Shown: piece after piece, positions 48,433 to 56,061 of the stretch
Position numbering within the stretch: the first letter of the stretch is position 1
Layout of the letters: every line of letters starts with the position of its first letter
Source: Piscibacillus halophilus
Lineage (GTDB): Bacteria > Bacillota > Bacilli > Bacillales > Alkalibacillaceae
Direction: 5' to 3'
Length of the DNA: 64,000 nt
Assembly: GCF_900110685.1 (NCBI RefSeq)
Contig: NZ_FOES01000003.1
Location: 62,001 to 126,000 of the forward strand
Notes under the pieces: generated by a model
What the model saw: only the letters and a program-made list of their open reading frames with translations
What the model was told of the DNA's origin: nothing
Databases searched by the model: none
Made by a program: the position numbers and the translations under genes

Positions 48433-48576
48433 CGTTTCTCACCTCTTCAGCTCTCATTAAGTACCTAATTAACTCATTTTACCATGTATATACGTTATTG
48501 TGAATATCCACTAAGTTTGAAAGCGTATTAGCAATGATTTATTATAGTAATAAAATGATTGAGAGGGGACACATAC

Positions 48577-49341
48577 ATGATTGTCATAGATCGCATTCAA
48601 GTAAAAGATATACCAGTATTAGAAGTTGTAGATCATGAAAAAATAGATCATCCACTTCCGATTATGATATATTTCCACGGTTTTACAAGCTCTAAAGAAC
48701 AAGATTTACCTCAAGCTTATTTAATGGCTGAAAAAGGTTACAGAGTATTCCTGCCTGATAGTTTGCATCACGGTGAACGAAAAGTTGAAGAAGATTCCCA
48801 TAAAATACAAGGTGACTTTTGGAAAATTGTGATTCAGAATTTAGAAGACTTAAATCAGCTATATTTATATATTAAAGAGCATGATTTAGCATTAGATGAC
48901 CGGATTGGAATTGCGGGTACGAGTATGGGAGGAATTACAGTTTCTGCTGCTTTAACTCGTTTCCAATGGGTTAAGGCTGCAGGTATAATGATGGGGTCGG
49001 CTAGAATCAGTGATATGGCTGCTTATTTACTCAAAAGCATTCAAAAACAAGGGGTTAACTTACCTTTAACTGCAGAGGAAATTAATCAACAATTAAAGTC
49101 ATTAGAACCTATTGATTTATCTAAACAACTTGAGAAATTAGGTAATCGTCCAATCTTTATTTGGCATGGAGAAAGTGACCATACGGTTCCTTATCAGCAT
49201 TCAATTTCTTTTGTTGAACAATTAAAAGTAGCCGGTTACCCTGAAGACCGTTATCAATTCATTTCTGAGCCGAATCGTGATCATAAAGTTAGCCGAGAAG
49301 CTAAATATGCCCTAAGGGACTTTTTCTCTACACATTTATAG
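48577..49341 (+). CDS. yitV: Alpha/beta-hydrolase esterase YitV
   Basis: A 254-residue alpha/beta hydrolase. The oxyanion segment IYFHGFTSSKE is near residue 25, the nucleophile elbow GTSMGGITVSAAL has Ser near residue 115, the catalytic Asp probably lies in WHGESDHTVPY, and the His in NRDHKVS near residue 235. ATG 48577 follows GAGAGGGGA by 7 nt; the TTG at 48559 is rejected because it precedes that signal. B. subtilis YitV is of the same length. The natural ester is unknown. Confidence 0.88.
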   Translation: MIVIDRIQVKDIPVLEVVDHEKIDHPLPIMIYFHGFTSSKEQDLPQAYLMAEKGYRVFLPDSLHHGERKVEEDSHKIQGDFWKIVIQNLEDLNQLYLYIKEHDLALDDRIGIAGTSMGGITVSAALTRFQWVKAAGIMMGSARISDMAAYLLKSIQKQGVNLPLTAEEINQQLKSLEPIDLSKQLEKLGNRPIFIWHGESDHTVPYQHSISFVEQLKVAGYPEDRYQFISEPNRDHKVSREAKYALRDFFSTHL

Positions 49342-49485: not shown

Positions 49486-49950
49486 TTGGACCTTAAAGAA
49501 TTTAGAAATTGTTTGGGTCGTTTTGCAACTGGGGTGACGGTGGTCACTTGCAATGAGGGAGAACAATGTCATGGCTTAACGGCTAATTCATTTACATCTG
49601 TTTCACTTGATCCACCACTTGTATTGGTTTCAATTGACAGAGATACGAAAGCCTTTCAAAAACTAAAGGATAATCGTTTTATTGTCAATATTTTATCCAT
49701 TGATCAACAAGATACAGCGATGCATTTCGCAGGTAAACCATGTGAAGATTTACCTTTTGAATGGATTGAAACTGATTTTGGCCATCGTATTCAAGATTCA
49801 TTGGCTTATATTGAATGTGAGCCGTGGGCGGAATATGATGGAGGCGATCATGTGTTATTTTTAGGAAAAGTTGTTAACTTTGAATATCAAGAAGGTGAGC
49901 CACTAGGGTTTTATGGTGGTAAGTTTTCTAAAATTGTACAGGAATCATAA
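49486..49950 (+). CDS. Flavin reductase (HpaC-like)
   Basis: A 154-residue flavin reductase domain protein, family of HpaC/PheA2, which supplies reduced FAD to two-component monooxygenases. The signature FATGVTVVTC is near residue 14, GLTANSFTSVSLDPPLVLVS follows, and the segment GDHVLFLGKV lies near the C terminus. TTG 49486 follows AAGGGGGAA. It lies 0.8 kb before an HpaB-family oxygenase in the same orientation and is the natural candidate partner. A terminator follows. Confidence 0.88.
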   Translation: MDLKEFRNCLGRFATGVTVVTCNEGEQCHGLTANSFTSVSLDPPLVLVSIDRDTKAFQKLKDNRFIVNILSIDQQDTAMHFAGKPCEDLPFEWIETDFGHRIQDSLAYIECEPWAEYDGGDHVLFLGKVVNFEYQEGEPLGFYGGKFSKIVQES

Positions 49951-50005: not shown

Positions 50006-50626
50006 TTATTCACCTTTACTCGGGCGTTCTAAAAAAATATTTTCACTTAATTGAGCATAGTTGGGTCCGGCTAATCTTGCGATAGGATTTAACTGTTCAG
50101 CTAAAATGCGTCCGTTATCATAAATGGCATCGTCAATGTGATATTTAATCACCTTTCCTATGAATAGATCATTGTTACATTCTTGATTTTCTTCTAACGG
50201 AATATGTTGAAATAATTTACACTCTAACCTTACTTTGGCTTCTTTAACTCCTGGAACGTCAATTTCTGTACTGTCAATAGGTGACAATCCGACACGTTCT
50301 ACCTCACTCACACTATCCGAATAAGGTGCCGATGTTTGATTCATTGTTTCTAATAAATCCATATCAAGAATATGAACAACAAACTCACCTTTTTCTAAAA
50401 TGTTTTGTGCAGTATGTTTTTTGATTTCTCCTTTAATCCTTCCAACAGATAAAACAATTAATGGTGGAGTTCCAGCAACCATATTAAAGAAACTAAATGG
50501 CGCTGCATTTAATACCCCCTTTTCATTTAAAGATGTTACGAATGCAATAGGTCTCGGTATGACACTGCCACTTAAAAGCTTGTAGTTGTCTTTTGGACTA
50601 AGATCAATTGGATTAATAGACTTCAT
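50006..50626 (-). CDS. Flavin reductase-like FMN-binding protein (YwrF-like)
   Basis: A 206-residue split-barrel FMN-binding protein of the flavoredoxin/YwrF group. PRPIAFVTSLNEKGVLNAAPFSFF near residue 22 is the family motif, and GKVIKYHIDD lies late. ATG 50626 follows AAGAGGTGA. It is divergent from the monooxygenase gene, so it could be a second reductase for the pathway or act on another flavoprotein. The in-frame extension upstream to 50722 has no ribosome-binding site and would cover the promoter region. Confidence 0.85.
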   Translation of the reverse strand: MKSINPIDLSPKDNYKLLSGSVIPRPIAFVTSLNEKGVLNAAPFSFFNMVAGTPPLIVLSVGRIKGEIKKHTAQNILEKGEFVVHILDMDLLETMNQTSAPYSDSVSEVERVGLSPIDSTEIDVPGVKEAKVRLECKLFQHIPLEENQECNNDLFIGKVIKYHIDDAIYDNGRILAEQLNPIARLAGPNYAQLSENIFLERPSKGE

Positions 50627-50725
50627 CAAATCACCTCTTTTTTTAGGATAGCATATTATAGCATATTTCGTTTTATAAATAATCGTCATATAACTAGATT
50701 CTATTAATAAACATAGTATCAAGGA

Positions 50726-50767: not shown

Positions 50768-52306
50768 ATGGATAGTAAGGTTAAAAGTAGACCTCTCACT
50801 GGACAAGAGTATCTTGAAAGTCTAAGAGACGGTAGAGAAATCTGGATTCACGGAGAAAAAGTCGAGGACGTGACGACGCACCCGGCTTTCCGTAATGCAG
50901 CACGTTCAATTGCTAGATTATATGATGCTCTTCATGATGAGAAAACAAAAGATATTTTAACCTGTGCAACAGATACAGAAAGTGGTGGATTTACTCATAA
51001 ATTTTTTACAATAGACAAGACCACTGAAGACCTCGTGGCAAGCCGTGATGCGATTGCAGAGTGGGCGAAGTTAACGTACGGGCAAATGGGACGTTCACCA
51101 GACTATAAAGCCGCATTTCTAGCAACATTAGGGGCTGATCCTGATTATTATGCTCCGTATCAAGAGAATGCCAAGTATTGGTATAAAGAAGCGCAGGAAA
51201 AGCTTTGGTATTTTAATCATGCGATTATTAATCCACCGGTTGATCGTAACAAACCAATGGAAGCGGTTAATGATGTATTTGTTAAAGCGGTTGGAGAAAC
51301 AGACGAAGGGGTCATCGTCAGTGGAGCTAAGATGGTTGCGACTGGTTCTGCCTTAACAAACTACAATTTTGTCGCGCATTACGGTGCCATTCCAGTTGAT
51401 AATGAAGATATGGCGTTAGTATTTGTCGCTCCAATGAACACACCAGGCGTTAAGTTAATATCTCGACAAAGTTATGAGATGGTTTCAGCAGTTATGGGTA
51501 GCCCGTTTGATTATCCATTAAGCAGTCGTTTTGATGAGAATGATGCGGTATTAGTGTTCGATGAAGCGGTCATTCCGTGGGAGAACATTTTAATTTATAA
51601 AGATGTAGAAAAAGCAAACTCTTTCTTCCCTGAAAGTGGATTTTTAAATCGGTTTACATTCCACGGGGTAACACGCCTAGCAGTCAAATTAGATTTTATG
51701 GCCGGATTGTTATTAAAAGCCATTAAAACAAACGGAACAGATGAATTTCGTGGAGTACAGGCCAACGTTGGAGAAGTATTAGCTTGGCGTAATATGTTCT
51801 GGTCGCTCAGTGATTCAATGGCTAAAACCCCAGACCCAGGCAGGGGAGGCACGGTCTTGCCGAACTTAAATTACGGTCTAGCTTATCGGGTATTTATGAC
51901 CATTGGTTGGCCAAGGGTTAAAGAAATAATTGAAAATGTGGTAGCTGGCAGCTTAATTGTACAGCCATCTAGTGCTGAAGACTTTAAAAATCCTGAATTA
52001 AGGCCATTATTAGATCGATTATATAGAGGGTCTAATGATATTGAAGCATTAGACAAAATTAAACTGATTAAATTGTTGTGGGATTCGATTGGTTCAGAGT
52101 ATGGTGGCCGTCATGAGCTTTATGAACGTAATTACTCTGGTAATCATGAAAACATCCGTTTAGAAAACTTGGTAGCTGCACAAGGTTCAGGTCTAGCAGA
52201 TGAATATATTAAGTTCGCTGAAATGTGCATGTCTGATTACGATTTAGACGGTTGGACGAATGATACATGGATTAACCCAGATGATATTAATTTATTTAAC
52301 AAATAA
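50768..52306 (+). CDS. HpaB-family FAD-dependent aromatic monooxygenase (phenol/4-hydroxyphenylacetate hydroxylase type)
   Basis: A 512-residue oxygenase component that uses reduced FAD to hydroxylate phenolic rings ortho to the hydroxyl. N-terminal SRPLTGQEYLESLRDGREIW, TGSALTNYNFVAHYGAIP near residue 197, SSRFDENDAVLVFDEAVIPWE near 255 and LYRGSNDIEALDKIKLIKL near the end are family patterns. AAGAGGGGGAAA precedes the ATG. It is the first gene of a run with an intradiol dioxygenase 14 nt downstream, which points to conversion of a phenol into a catechol. The exact substrate (phenol, 4-hydroxyphenylacetate, chlorophenol or salicylate-like) cannot be read. Confidence 0.88.
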   Translation: MDSKVKSRPLTGQEYLESLRDGREIWIHGEKVEDVTTHPAFRNAARSIARLYDALHDEKTKDILTCATDTESGGFTHKFFTIDKTTEDLVASRDAIAEWAKLTYGQMGRSPDYKAAFLATLGADPDYYAPYQENAKYWYKEAQEKLWYFNHAIINPPVDRNKPMEAVNDVFVKAVGETDEGVIVSGAKMVATGSALTNYNFVAHYGAIPVDNEDMALVFVAPMNTPGVKLISRQSYEMVSAVMGSPFDYPLSSRFDENDAVLVFDEAVIPWENILIYKDVEKANSFFPESGFLNRFTFHGVTRLAVKLDFMAGLLLKAIKTNGTDEFRGVQANVGEVLAWRNMFWSLSDSMAKTPDPGRGGTVLPNLNYGLAYRVFMTIGWPRVKEIIENVVAGSLIVQPSSAEDFKNPELRPLLDRLYRGSNDIEALDKIKLIKLLWDSIGSEYGGRHELYERNYSGNHENIRLENLVAAQGSGLADEYIKFAEMCMSDYDLDGWTNDTWINPDDINLFNK

Positions 52307-52320
52307 GGGGGATTATATCG

Positions 52321-53088
52321 ATGAGTGAGACAAAAACGAACACTCGCGTGAGTGAAATTTTTGATTTGTTCTATAAACATTTAAATAACTTTTTAAAAGA
52401 GGCAAATCCGAATCATGAAGAATACACAGAGTTTGTGAAGTGGGCAGATCGCTTAGGGCGTACAGGAGAATTACCATTATTCATGGATGTATTTATTGAA
52501 TCATCGGTGCTTAAAAATATGTATGCTGATAAGCCAGGGACAGAGCCTTCATTATTAGGACCGTATTATGTAGAAGGTGCGCCTATTTTAGAAAAACCTT
52601 ATAAACTACCAATGCGAGAAAATGAAAAAGGTGAAAAGCTTAAGTTCTCTGGAACTGTTAAAGATGTTAACGGAGAACCGTTAGCGAATACATTAGTGGA
52701 TATGTGGCAGGATGACGCGGATGGCTATTATTCATCCTTTGATTCAGATGCACCGCCTTATAATTTGCGAGGAAGATTCTATACGGATGAAAATGGTTAT
52801 TTTGAGGTTGATACGATTGTGCCAATTCCGTATCAAATACCGACAGCTGGACCAACAGGAGAATTTCTCAAAATGATAGATCAGCACCCATATCGACCAG
52901 CTCATTTGCATATTATGTTTAAACATAAAGGGTATGAAACTTTAATTACACAGGTGTTCTTTGAAGGTGACGAATGGCTCGAAAGCGATGTAGCAGATGG
53001 AGTACGTCCATCCTTGATGACCAAGTTATATGATGGCGGCGACTATAAGAAAGCCTCACTTGATTTCGTCATGCGAAACGAGGAATAG
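52321..53088 (+). CDS. Intradiol ring-cleavage dioxygenase (catechol 1,2-dioxygenase type)
   Basis: A 255-residue non-heme Fe(III) dioxygenase that opens a catechol between its hydroxyls to a cis,cis-muconate. It has an N-terminal helical dimerisation domain (about 1-85) and a C-terminal beta-sandwich. Iron ligands are seen as the Tyr of LLGPYYVEG, the Tyr of PPYNLRGRFYT, and the two His of RPAHLHIMF. The N-terminal domain excludes the protocatechuate enzymes and suits catechol or hydroxyquinol dioxygenases. It is cotranscribed with the monooxygenase; a partial terminator follows. Confidence 0.9.
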   Translation: MSETKTNTRVSEIFDLFYKHLNNFLKEANPNHEEYTEFVKWADRLGRTGELPLFMDVFIESSVLKNMYADKPGTEPSLLGPYYVEGAPILEKPYKLPMRENEKGEKLKFSGTVKDVNGEPLANTLVDMWQDDADGYYSSFDSDAPPYNLRGRFYTDENGYFEVDTIVPIPYQIPTAGPTGEFLKMIDQHPYRPAHLHIMFKHKGYETLITQVFFEGDEWLESDVADGVRPSLMTKLYDGGDYKKASLDFVMRNEE

Positions 53089-53098
53089 GAGTAACATG

Positions 53099-53136
53099 AA
53101 GGAGGTTGTTTTAGCATTAAGACACCCTCCTTTTTC
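53099..53136 (+). terminator. Terminator-like hairpin within the aromatic cluster
   Basis: AAGGAGG pairs with CCTCCTT, extended imperfectly by TGT/ACA, and is followed by TTTTTC. It separates the oxygenase pair from the downstream genes. Confidence 0.7.
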
Positions 53137-53174: not shown

Positions 53175-54329
53175 ATGGACTTATTAATTAAACATATTAC
53201 GACAGATATCATTGACATACCCATTAAACGTCCTCATCAATTTTCGACTGAAAAGATTACAACTAAAAGTTTTATGATTGTAAGATTACACCTTACTAAT
53301 GATATAGAAGGCATTGGAGAAGGCACGACGCCAGGAATTTGGTGGAATGGTGAAAGTGTCGAAACGATGAAATTAGTGGTAGATCAATATATTAAACCTC
53401 TTTTATTAGGAAAAGATCCACGTTATGTCGAACAAATTTTAGCCTTAATGGATCGTCACATCCGTGGTAATTCCTTTGCGAAAGCGGCAGTTGAAATGAG
53501 TATATATGATGCCTTAGGACACGTCTTTCAGGTACCTGTTCATCAATTGCTTGGTGGGGCATTTACAAAAGAAGTTCCAATTAGGTGGGCGCTTGCCAGT
53601 GGTTCAATAGAAGGCGATATAAATGAAGGGATTGAACTTTATCAAAACCATACCTATCAAACTTTTAAGATCAAATCTGGGAAAGAATCTCCTGAAAAAG
53701 ACGTGATTCGTTCTATAAAAATAGCTGAAGGTCTTCAAGGTTACTCGGCTATTGGCGTTGACCCTAATGGTTCTTGGAATCGATTGATGACCAAAAAATG
53801 GATGGAGGAACTTAATCAAGCTGGCGTCGAATTTTTAGAACAACCATTAGCACCAGAAGATATTGATGGGATGAGTGACTTAGTTTCGATGAAGAGAGTA
53901 CCGATCATGGCTGATGAAGGCATTGCTTCTATTCATGATGCTAGACAAATCGTTGAAAAGAAAGCCGCTGATATCTTCTCATTAAAAATTCATAAATTTG
54001 GCGGTATGCGTCATACGCTTAAAGTAGGAGCACTTGCTGAGAGTGCTGGAATCTGTTGTTTTGGCGGAACTTCATTAGAGACTTCTATTGGAACAGCAGC
54101 GAATCTCCATGCCTTTTGTACCTTACGTAACTTGGATTATGGAGCTGAAATTTTTGGACCTGATTGGTTAAAAGACGATCTTGTTGTAGAGCCGTTGAAA
54201 TCTAAAAAAGGAACCTTAACACTACCTGAAAAACCAGGGCTTGGGATTGAGTTAGATGAGACGAAGTTTACGCAATACAAACGTCATAAGGAGGAGAACT
54301 CTTGGAACACTACGATGCGCCAACCTTAA
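53175..54329 (+). CDS. Muconate cycloisomerase-like enolase-superfamily enzyme
   Basis: A 384-residue enolase-superfamily protein of the muconate lactonising subgroup. Catalytic residues fit: KxK in TFKIKSGK near residue 163, metal ligands Asp in GVDPNGSW, Glu in LEQPLAPED and Asp in MADEG, and the opposite Lys in LKIHKFGG. It should cyclise cis,cis-muconate to muconolactone, which fits the intradiol dioxygenase upstream. Other family members racemise dipeptides or make succinylbenzoate, so the assignment depends on context. The gene overlaps the DUF3237 gene by 28 bp. Confidence 0.87.
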   Translation: MDLLIKHITTDIIDIPIKRPHQFSTEKITTKSFMIVRLHLTNDIEGIGEGTTPGIWWNGESVETMKLVVDQYIKPLLLGKDPRYVEQILALMDRHIRGNSFAKAAVEMSIYDALGHVFQVPVHQLLGGAFTKEVPIRWALASGSIEGDINEGIELYQNHTYQTFKIKSGKESPEKDVIRSIKIAEGLQGYSAIGVDPNGSWNRLMTKKWMEELNQAGVEFLEQPLAPEDIDGMSDLVSMKRVPIMADEGIASIHDARQIVEKKAADIFSLKIHKFGGMRHTLKVGALAESAGICCFGGTSLETSIGTAANLHAFCTLRNLDYGAEIFGPDWLKDDLVVEPLKSKKGTLTLPEKPGLGIELDETKFTQYKRHKEENSWNTTMRQP

Positions 54330-54772
54330 CCTTTTTATTTGATATGGAACTAACCGTTGATCAGCCATACCATTTAGGTGTAACACCAAAAGGGAATCGG
54401 AGAATTATTCAAGTTAATGATGGTTATTTTAGAGGAAGTATTTTAAACGGCACCGTGATTCCTGGGGGAGATGATTGGATAACAGTGTTAGAAGACGGAA
54501 CCATTATTCAAGATGTGCGTATTTTGCTTAAAACATATGATGGCGCATATATTGCGATGACGTATAGAGGAATACGGACAGGTACTAGTGACGTTTTAAA
54601 AAGATTAGATCGAAACGAAGAAGTGAATTTAAACGAGTATTACTTTACAACACAACCTGTGTTTGAAACTTCATCTAAAAAATATGATTGGTTAAATAAA
54701 CGAATTTTTGTAGCGCAAGGAAGAAGAATGCCAGGGAAAGTCAACTATTCTATTTACACGGTTGGTGAGTAA
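54302..54772 (+). CDS. DUF3237-family protein
   Basis: A 156-residue protein of the DUF3237 family, a small beta-barrel: GVTPKGNRRIIQVNDGYFRG near residue 27, NGTVIPGGDDWITVLEDG near 50 and DGAYIAMTYRGIRTG near 80. TTG 54302 lies inside the end of the cycloisomerase gene with AAGGAGGAG 6 nt upstream, so both are coupled. The alpha/beta-hydrolase gene follows after 3 nt. In ordinary catechol pathways a muconolactone isomerase (CatC) stands between these two enzymes, and none is present; this protein may fill that step. Its function is not established. Confidence 0.82.
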   Translation: MEHYDAPTLTFLFDMELTVDQPYHLGVTPKGNRRIIQVNDGYFRGSILNGTVIPGGDDWITVLEDGTIIQDVRILLKTYDGAYIAMTYRGIRTGTSDVLKRLDRNEEVNLNEYYFTTQPVFETSSKKYDWLNKRIFVAQGRRMPGKVNYSIYTVGE

Positions 54773-54775
54773 TCT

Positions 54776-55660
54776 ATGCTTAAAATGTGGCGTAAAAAGT
54801 TTTTGAAAAACGGTAAACAACTTTTTATACATGAAACTCCAGGGGAGAAGGGAACGATTATTGGTGTTCATGGCTTGACGGGTCACCACATGCAATTAGG
54901 ACATTATCAAAAAGCATTTGAAAAGCAATTCCGTATGATTACTTATGATTTGAGAGGACGGGGTAAAAGTTCGGAGGCTGATCCATCTACATGTATTGAT
55001 CAGCATGTAGATGATCTCGTTGAGCTAATAGATTTACTAAAAGTTGAACGCCCGATCCTTATGGGGTATTCCATGGGGGCGTATATTTGCTTGAAAGCCG
55101 CTTCTCGATTAGAAAATGTAGGAGCCGTTATATTATTAGATGGAGCAGCAGAAACTGATGAAGGTCAAAAAGAATTAATCCTTCCGTCCTTAGTAAGATT
55201 AAAAACACCATATTCGACGCGGTTAGATTACATTACTCAAACTCGCAAGGCATATGAAAAATTAGGAATAAGATGGTCTGAGCATATGAACCGAATTGTC
55301 AATTATGAAATAGAAAAGCAAGGAGATCATTGGGAGCATAAGTCAAATTCGAAATTAATTGAAAAAGATTTTATGAGCTTTTTTGATTATAACGTGGAAC
55401 AATATGCACCATCCATTACAGCACCCGTATTATTAGTGCAGGCAACTGGGCATATGGTTGGAAGACGCCCACTTTTTTATGACTTTCAATTTTATAAGCT
55501 TGAACAACTAATAAATACCATTGAGACAATTAAGACAAAGGCCAATCATTTAACACTTGTGTTTAATAAACAAGTAGAACTAGAGTGGAGAATGTTAGAC
55601 TTTTTGAATCGTCATTTTTCTTTAATAGATCATGAGTCAACGTATTGTCAAAATCGTTAA
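54776..55660 (+). CDS. Alpha/beta hydrolase, possible 3-oxoadipate enol-lactonase
   Basis: A 294-residue alpha/beta hydrolase. The oxyanion HG is in GVHGLTGHH near residue 29, the nucleophile Ser in LMGYSMGAYI near residue 102, and the catalytic His probably in KANHLTLV near residue 263. YDLRGRGKSS is typical of the PcaD/CatD-like and epoxide-hydrolase-like group. Following a cycloisomerase and DUF3237 in one transcript, it would be expected to open the enol-lactone to 3-oxoadipate. The protein is longer than classical PcaD (about 260), so other ester or C-C hydrolase roles are possible. Confidence 0.8.
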   Translation: MLKMWRKKFLKNGKQLFIHETPGEKGTIIGVHGLTGHHMQLGHYQKAFEKQFRMITYDLRGRGKSSEADPSTCIDQHVDDLVELIDLLKVERPILMGYSMGAYICLKAASRLENVGAVILLDGAAETDEGQKELILPSLVRLKTPYSTRLDYITQTRKAYEKLGIRWSEHMNRIVNYEIEKQGDHWEHKSNSKLIEKDFMSFFDYNVEQYAPSITAPVLLVQATGHMVGRRPLFYDFQFYKLEQLINTIETIKTKANHLTLVFNKQVELEWRMLDFLNRHFSLIDHESTYCQNR

Positions 55661-55749: not shown

Positions 55750-56061
55750 ATGGATAAGGCTTTAGAAGAAAACCTTTGGGGTGCGCTTGAAAACGTCATT
55801 GACCCTGAACTAGGTATTGATATCGTCAACCTTGGTTTAGTTTATGGCGTTGACTTAGATGATGAAGGTTCAGCAACGGTTACTATGACATTAACTGCAA
55901 TGGGTTGTCCGCTTGCTGGTACGATTGAACAAGATGTCAAACGTGCACTTTCTGATATCCCTGAAGTTGACAATACAGTGGTTAATATCGTATGGAACCC
56001 GCCATGGACGAAAGAACGTATGTCTCGCTATGCGAAAATCGCTCTTGGAATTCCAGACTAA
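55750..56061 (+). CDS. yitW: SufT-like iron-sulfur assembly protein YitW (MIP18/DUF59)
   Basis: A 103-residue MIP18-family protein. It contains ENVIDPELGIDIVNLGLVYG near residue 11 and TAMGCPLAGTIEQDV with the conserved Cys near residue 55. Such proteins help deliver iron-sulfur clusters to target enzymes. AAGGAGG precedes the ATG. In B. subtilis yitW directly follows yitV; here the aromatic cluster separates them. Confidence 0.92.
   Translation: MDKALEENLWGALENVIDPELGIDIVNLGLVYGVDLDDEGSATVTMTLTAMGCPLAGTIEQDVKRALSDIPEVDNTVVNIVWNPPWTKERMSRYAKIALGIPD

Follow-up and report, generated by a model that had tools for sequence, protein, structure and literature searches.

The catechol ortho pathway needs CatA, CatB, CatC and CatD, with CatC as the small muconolactone delta-isomerase. 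Which protein, then, takes the CatC step in a cluster of Piscibacillus halophilus where a DUF3237 protein is encoded between catB and a hydrolase gene? An earlier note on this DNA had listed an intradiol dioxygenase, a muconate cycloisomerase, the DUF3237 protein and an alpha/beta hydrolase in that order, and had suggested that the DUF3237 protein might stand in for CatC. Pfam and NCBIfam annotation of the window (the whole stretch of 64,000 nucleotides that was analysed, part of contig 35 in a genome of 2.99 Mb, 83 contigs and 99.98% completeness) returned these genes in the same order and at the same coordinates, within the following set of features.

48559..49341, plus strand: esterase-like alpha/beta hydrolase (PF00326, 57 bits)
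49486..49950, plus strand: flavin reductase (PF01613, 129 bits; StyB/HpaC-like, under the equivalog cut-offs)
50006..50722, minus strand: second, divergent flavin-reductase-like protein (PF01613, 82 bits)
50768..52306, plus strand: HpaB-type flavin monooxygenase (PF11794/PF03241; TIGR02310, 706 bits, under the cut-off of 885)
52321..53088, plus strand: intradiol dioxygenase, probable CatA (PF00775, 164 bits)
53098..53133, plus strand: terminator-like hairpin with a downstream T run in the catA-catB gap (-17.5 kcal/mol; z -4.9 relative to shuffled sequences)
53175..54329, plus strand: muconate cycloisomerase, CatB, clade 1 of the CatB tree (TIGR02534, 389 bits, over the cut-off of 335)
54302..54772, plus strand: DUF3237 protein (PF11578, 158.6 bits, cut-off 24)
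54776..55660, plus strand: alpha/beta hydrolase (PF00561, 60 bits)
55750..56061, plus strand: SufT/PaaD-like protein (PF01883, 76 bits)

The tight spacing noticed earlier also holds, in that catB and the DUF3237 gene overlap by 28 nt and the hydrolase starts 3 nt past the DUF3237 stop. The DUF3237 gene begins with a TTG codon, preceded by the ribosome site AAGGAGGAGAA.

Taken together, the products of these genes would lead from phenol to 3-oxoadipate. The monooxygenase, whose best solved relative is the chlorophenol-4-monooxygenase 4oo2, probably hydroxylates phenol to catechol, with phenol as the presumed substrate, and the flavin reductase at 49486..49950 is probably its partner; neither gene appeared in the earlier note, and from their place upstream the two could supply catechol to the cluster. 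Catechol would be cleaved to cis,cis-muconate by the intradiol dioxygenase, probably a catechol 1,2-dioxygenase, which reaches the cut-off of no catechol or chlorocatechol model in NCBIfam and has as its nearest solved chains the catechol and chlorocatechol 1,2-dioxygenases 3i4y, 3hgi and 2boy, ahead of hydroxyquinol enzymes. CatB, with the solved relatives 4m0x, 1nu5, 3i4k and 1muc and a chloromuconate cycloisomerase as the best match, would turn muconate into muconolactone, the DUF3237 protein would convert muconolactone to 3-oxoadipate enol-lactone, and the alpha/beta hydrolase would release 3-oxoadipate for CoA transfer and then thiolysis. The enol-lactone hydrolase (CatD) role is our proposal for this last protein, which has PcaD as its best NCBIfam match and fails the PcaD equivalog TIGR02427 at 54 bits against a cut-off of 256. 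The genes for CoA transfer and thiolysis, pcaIJF, are unlinked to the window cluster, and the closest PcaF in the genome is 48% identical. On contig 72, a PcaI/PcaJ-like pair (L064:14938-16261; 61/55%), with the PcaF-like thiolase (48%) nearby and an IclR-like regulator as well, may encode the final steps of the pathway away from the cluster. The low PcaD score, the want of a close PcaF and the unlinked position of this pair weigh against the scheme.

Since the hairpin lies between catA and catB, the catB-DUF3237-hydrolase genes may form a separate transcription unit. We spotted the hairpin in the sequence and then folded it; a promoter and terminator scan did not list it. In that scan, terminator-like sites were commoner than chance (12 versus 4.1 in shuffles) and promoter-like sites were no commoner than in shuffles (18 versus 25). 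Beyond the core genes, three genomes of the window's family (L010, L011 and L060) keep the esterase-like gene and, as a separate observation, the SufT/PaaD-like gene adjoining the cluster, and the second flavin-reductase-like gene recurs in L011 and L060. The esterase-like protein, which may or may not belong to the pathway, reaches 190 bits against the NCBIfam esterase model PRK10566 (cut-off 201).

Several of these matches bear on an alternative, namely that the DUF3237 protein isomerises or dehalogenates substituted (methyl- or chloro-) muconolactones, the chemistry for which MmlI and ClcF are the model, and that it handles plain muconolactone only on the side. For both CatB and the monooxygenase the best solved match is an enzyme of chlorinated compounds, a chlorocatechol 1,2-dioxygenase ranks just behind the catechol 1,2-dioxygenases for CatA, and the esterase-like gene also matches the dienelactone hydrolase family PF01738 at 33 bits (cut-off 21), a score below those of PF00326 and the esterase model. 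We nevertheless consider this alternative unlikely. In relatives of the cluster, the linked pcaI, pcaJ and pcaF genes and PcaR-type regulators described below fit plain 3-oxoadipate, and none of the annotated neighbours was recognised as a maleylacetate reductase, many neighbouring open reading frames being without annotation.

A muconolactone isomerase role for the DUF3237 protein presupposes that CatC is not encoded elsewhere. The earlier note saw no CatC-like gene, and a profile search with PF02426 gave zero matches across the whole genome, so that a CatC hidden outside the window was rejected for this genome. At an E value of 0.001, the DUF3237 protein itself was reported by PF11578 alone, with no match to PF02426. 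Wider surveys used a class sample of 398 genomes from the window's class and a denser sample of 261 genomes of family f19; the PF02426 search covered the window genome, as the one genome of its family, and the 398 class genomes, nine of which are among the 43 CatB genomes of f19. CatC was found in just three class genomes (G057, G121 and G299, at 40 to 50 bits), all of them without CatB over its cut-off. As to whether DUF3237 excludes catC, none of the 13 CatB genomes of this sample has CatC. As to the comparison with CatC made earlier, the position between catB and the hydrolase stands; the size class is a loose fit, with 156 amino acids set against a CatC profile of 90 positions.

The arrangement in the window is not chance, because it recurs in distinct loci. 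We defined an operon branch as DUF3237 proteins at least 52% identical to the window protein, which comprises 31 distinct loci, the window included. In 25 of these, catB lies within 2.7 kb of the DUF3237 gene, so that its coupling to ortho cleavage, raised as a question by the earlier note, extends well beyond this genome, and in 28 of the 31 the hydrolase lies within 76 nt. All six loci without a linked catB (L010, L011 and L013 to L016) belong to the window's own family; outside that family, CatB was found within 2.7 kb in 23 of 23 distinct operon-branch loci read, a further G605 copy being left out. Fourteen loci came from a scan of named genomes, and seven further loci came from the window's family. 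Every one of the 14 named loci has CatB in the stretch of DNA read, judged by similarity to the window's or the type-2 CatB (see below), 13 have the hydrolase directly after DUF3237 (the contig ends in L017), and 11 have a PcaI gene. The order catB-DUF3237-hydrolase-pcaI-pcaJ-pcaF is complete in eight of the 14 (L018 to L021, L024 and L028 to L030) and runs as far as pcaJ in two more (L022 and L023), and some of the named loci have a divergent PcaR-type gene ahead of the operon.

Representative neighbours support these assignments: PcaI scores 241 bits (cut-off 128.5), PcaJ 257 (cut-off 244) and PcaF 587, just under its cut-off of 597, a PcaR-family regulator scores 332 bits (cut-off 285), and a protein related to the phenol regulator MobR scores 137 (cut-off 999). 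With PcaI, PcaJ, PcaF and PcaR-type neighbours linked to it, the operon appears to handle 3-oxoadipate, and by its gene content looks like a beta-ketoadipate pathway with DUF3237 in the CatC slot. Inside several of the clusters there is also a short protein with an FAD-synthetase domain (L021:4209-4751, PF06574; L018:4135-4722; L025:9319-9864), which might provide the monooxygenase with flavin of its own.

The loci that fit poorly are all close to home. The window's family is represented by 22 genomes, and CatB was searched in the eight that have DUF3237; five of these (G003, G004, G005, G010 and G021) have an intact operon-branch DUF3237 and no CatB above the cut-off. Their weaker matches to the CatB model, the best at 130 to 257 bits against a cut-off of 335, could in principle serve as CatB. 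In G021, and likewise at L010, catA is the only ring-cleavage or lactone gene adjoining DUF3237, and in G003, G004 and G005 a flavin reductase-DUF3237-hydrolase group adjoins an aldehyde dehydrogenase gene, as read at L014:8755-10782, L015:206-2186 and L016:8886-10887 in genomes without CatB over the cut-off. G009 divides the genes between two places, a window-like catA-catB-hydrolase locus without DUF3237 (L060:9570-11615) and another with DUF3237, a weak relative of the CMD protein introduced below and a second hydrolase beside pcaIJF (L013:8986-11046).

Loci of this kind are what would be expected if DUF3237 and the hydrolase were a wider lactone-handling pair that was recruited to catechol breakdown and that, in the absence of CatB, serves another lactone or tautomerises the ring-cleavage product. 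Either the pair or DUF3237 by itself does persist in those five genomes (L010, L011 and L014 to L016). However, L010:9911-11218 and L011:8719-10944 are syntenic with the window, with catA and DUF3237 intact and the monooxygenase and catB gone from the same place, which looks like decay, and the constant company of CatB outside the family also argues against the idea. A general lactone-handling pair is in our judgment distinctly improbable, and the muconolactone step remains the better account of the operon branch.

The distribution of DUF3237 among genomes that have CatB points to the same step. CatB exceeds its cut-off in 13 of the 398 class genomes, and DUF3237 is present in 32, seven of which are among the 13. 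All seven carry an operon-branch protein with catB within 2.7 kb. The remaining six CatB genomes carry a different type of operon, in which a CMD-family protein takes the place of DUF3237: the CMD query scores at least 210 bits in exactly these six among the CatB genomes and is absent from the seven DUF3237 genomes at an E value of 1e-10, so that the 13 divide into seven and six with no overlap. Within f19, CatB occurs in 43 of 261 genomes and DUF3237 in 13, consisting of 11 CatB genomes with a catB-linked gene and two genomes with a distant relative. The CMD search, which took in 80 of the f19 genomes including all 43 with CatB, found the protein (205 bits or more) in 32 of the 43, and all 11 with DUF3237 lack it; every one of the 43 therefore carries one of the two proteins and never both. 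Nine CatB genomes are common to both surveys, which together contain 47, split into 14 with DUF3237 and 33 with CMD; one genus, g103, alone contributes ten of each. Close relatives share ancestry, so these counts are not independent. Confinement of the CMD protein to CatB genomes was considered and rejected, since nine of the 37 CatB-less f19 genomes examined carry it, all in one genus.

The second operon type (type 2) comprises catA, a hydrolase, in some cases a Na/sulfate-type symporter, the CMD protein, pcaI, pcaJ and CatB, often with pcaF, and its CatB is 32 to 38% identical to that of the window. In G289 the CMD gene is instead part of a separate flavin reductase-monooxygenase-CMD-catA cluster. 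The CMD protein (for example L048:7353-8072, L044:7020-7727 and L093:6932-7639) has two domains and about 240 amino acids, and the five rows tested belong to the same Pfam family as PcaC. PcaC itself converts carboxymuconolactone to 3-oxoadipate enol-lactone, the same product that CatC makes from muconolactone and that we propose for DUF3237, and in type-2 operons this PcaC relative occupies the slot that DUF3237 fills elsewhere; the PcaC fold, however, is all-helical and unrelated to the DUF3237 barrel. A predicted model of the CMD protein lies nearest to the 4-carboxymuconolactone decarboxylase 4g9q (Z 16.1, 3.1 A over 188 residues), tied with 2q0t, and is also near AhpD (Z 13.6), so the fold alone does not decide its function. 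AhpD bears a CxxC motif, and an AhpD-type peroxidase was rejected because the motif is absent from all 15 CMD rows read, one of which is the weak L013 relative (the G567 gene was left out). On the strength of its sequence family and its place, the CMD protein is a candidate for a second CatC replacement, a case that suggests a PcaC relative turned into a CatC.

A tree of 41 CatB proteins resolves two deep clades. In clade 1 all 21 are accompanied by DUF3237 (in G009 by a copy elsewhere in the genome), and in clade 2 there are 15 with CMD and five with DUF3237, the latter on three lineages. The clade-2 combination with DUF3237 is seen directly in L028, which reads catB-DUF3237-hydrolase-pcaI-pcaJ-pcaF-catA, and in L075. 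Mapped onto the tree, the exchange between DUF3237 and CMD takes three changes, or two to three in bootstrap trees, with the qualification that the well-supported branches alone force one change and that the bootstrap had not fully settled. The two proteins may thus have been swapped in up to three CatB lineages.

For a protein that is swapped with a PcaC relative, that is encoded between catB and the hydrolase, and whose genomes lack CatC, the simplest reading is that it catalyses the CatC step. We therefore consider it likely that the operon-branch DUF3237 protein is a muconolactone isomerase non-homologous to CatC. Gene order, conservation, the lack of any CatC match and the distribution all favor the replacement that the earlier note had suspected; because five close relatives keep DUF3237 without CatB over the cut-off, and because the activity is inferred, this amounts to genomic support and not to proof. 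With somewhat less assurance, our judgment leans toward the broader reading that Bacilli replaced CatC twice, by the DUF3237 barrel and by a helical, PcaC-like protein of two domains, and that either can take the other's place. If they are interchangeable in the catechol pathway, muconolactone isomerisation would have at least three unrelated solutions.

What could the barrel do to muconolactone? The isomerisation is a proton shift on an oxygen ring, and CatC accomplishes it with a ferredoxin-like fold. CatC and DUF3237 share the pathway and operon position and, as we propose, the reaction, but have no sequence match, and a family of 90 positions is set against a beta-barrel of 156 amino acids. 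Our predicted model, built from 30 sequences (mean pLDDT 92.9), has the DUF3237 barrel and superimposes on 3c5o with Z 24.1 and 1.5 A over 154 residues. Lower matches, with Z near 9, are allene oxide cyclases, dirigent proteins and Diels-Alderases, which may merely share a common barrel arrangement. Nine residues (R33, D58, R92, E122, T123, Y128, T61, Q70 and Y113) are kept in 26 of 26 operon-branch rows and D57 in 25 of 26. Four outgroup rows of the same alignment share R33, D58, R92, E122, T123 and Y128 wholly or mostly and differ at D57, T61, Q70 and Y113. Both groups, chosen by conservation, are candidates for catalytic residues: in the barrel pocket, a carboxylate would remove the proton at C4 and give it back at C2, and arginines would grip the substrate carboxylate. 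The UPF0311 structures 3g7g, 3c5o and 4pux have the same family and fold (Z 22 to 24) but lack the D57 and Q70 of the operon branch, and their entries name no function.

The phrase "of unknown function", applied to DUF3237 earlier, proved too broad. The pinoresinol-pathway protein PinX contains a DUF3237 domain and shows 42% identity to PhcG and 38% to PhcF (PMC12607616), and PhcF and PhcG are described as decarboxylating and opening a phenylcoumaran ring (PMC11323797, PMC12997858). The fungal enzyme PhnH, which matches our model, closes an oxygen ring by hydroalkoxylation, and on the basis of calculation and docking a glutamate is proposed to transfer the proton (PMC8704240). PhnH (6jjs, 6jjt) has the same fold as the model (6jjs: Z 19.3, 2.0 A over 129 residues), whereas it acts in herqueinone biosynthesis, is 29% identical in the structural alignment and has a lysine at R33 in the profile alignment. 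Oxygen-ring reactions are thus within the DUF3237 repertoire. PinX, PhcF and PhcG, set against the window protein by description only, resemble it in PinX's DUF3237 domain and, on our proposal, in acting on an oxygen ring that has a neighbouring carboxylate, and differ in their substrates and pathways and in the loss of CO2. No connection between DUF3237 and muconolactone appears in the titles and abstract openings of the open-access papers found on DUF3237.

These enzymes suggest a further alternative, in which the DUF3237 protein would resemble PhcF, PhcG and PinX in being a decarboxylase or lyase that opens a ring, and would act upstream on a plant phenolic, thereby feeding catechol or phenol into the operon. 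The kinship of PinX with PhcF and PhcG favors it, as do other DUF3237 genes on plasmids, one in a ferulate cluster and one beside the gene of a carotenoid oxygenase that we read as lignostilbene-type. We give it hardly any weight, because an upstream lyase leaves unexplained why CatB genomes have DUF3237 or CMD and never both, and because no such neighbour was recognised among the annotated genes around the operons, where many open reading frames lack annotation.

Other branches of the family set the limits of the isomerase reading. A single function for all DUF3237 proteins was rejected, because 25 of the 32 class-sample genomes with DUF3237 fall outside the operon branch. Four of these (G172, G183, G108 and G399) have proteins 30 to 34% identical to that of the window, and the other 21, at 40 to 62 bits, were placed outside the branch by their low scores; the one locus read among them, in G281 (L063), has no match to the window protein at 1e-5. 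The f19 proteins outside the branch are those of G619 (30%) and G624 (35%) and a second G595 copy (38%), the second G605 copy being left out. DUF3237 also occurs in 45 plasmid records, of which six contexts were examined, one of them unannotated. In the five others, all of other branches, catB was absent among the annotated neighbours, the plasmid gene tables being incomplete. These other contexts limit the isomerase reading to the operon branch.

If the proposal is true, it gives a specific and easily assayed function to one branch of a domain of "unknown function", and it would close the catechol pathway, on paper, in those Bacilli whose genomes gave no catC in these searches. It would also be a case of non-homologous replacement with two mutually exclusive stand-ins. 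The likely finding is in this respect broader than the one first proposed for this locus: two unrelated stand-ins for CatC may serve the same step within one bacterial class.
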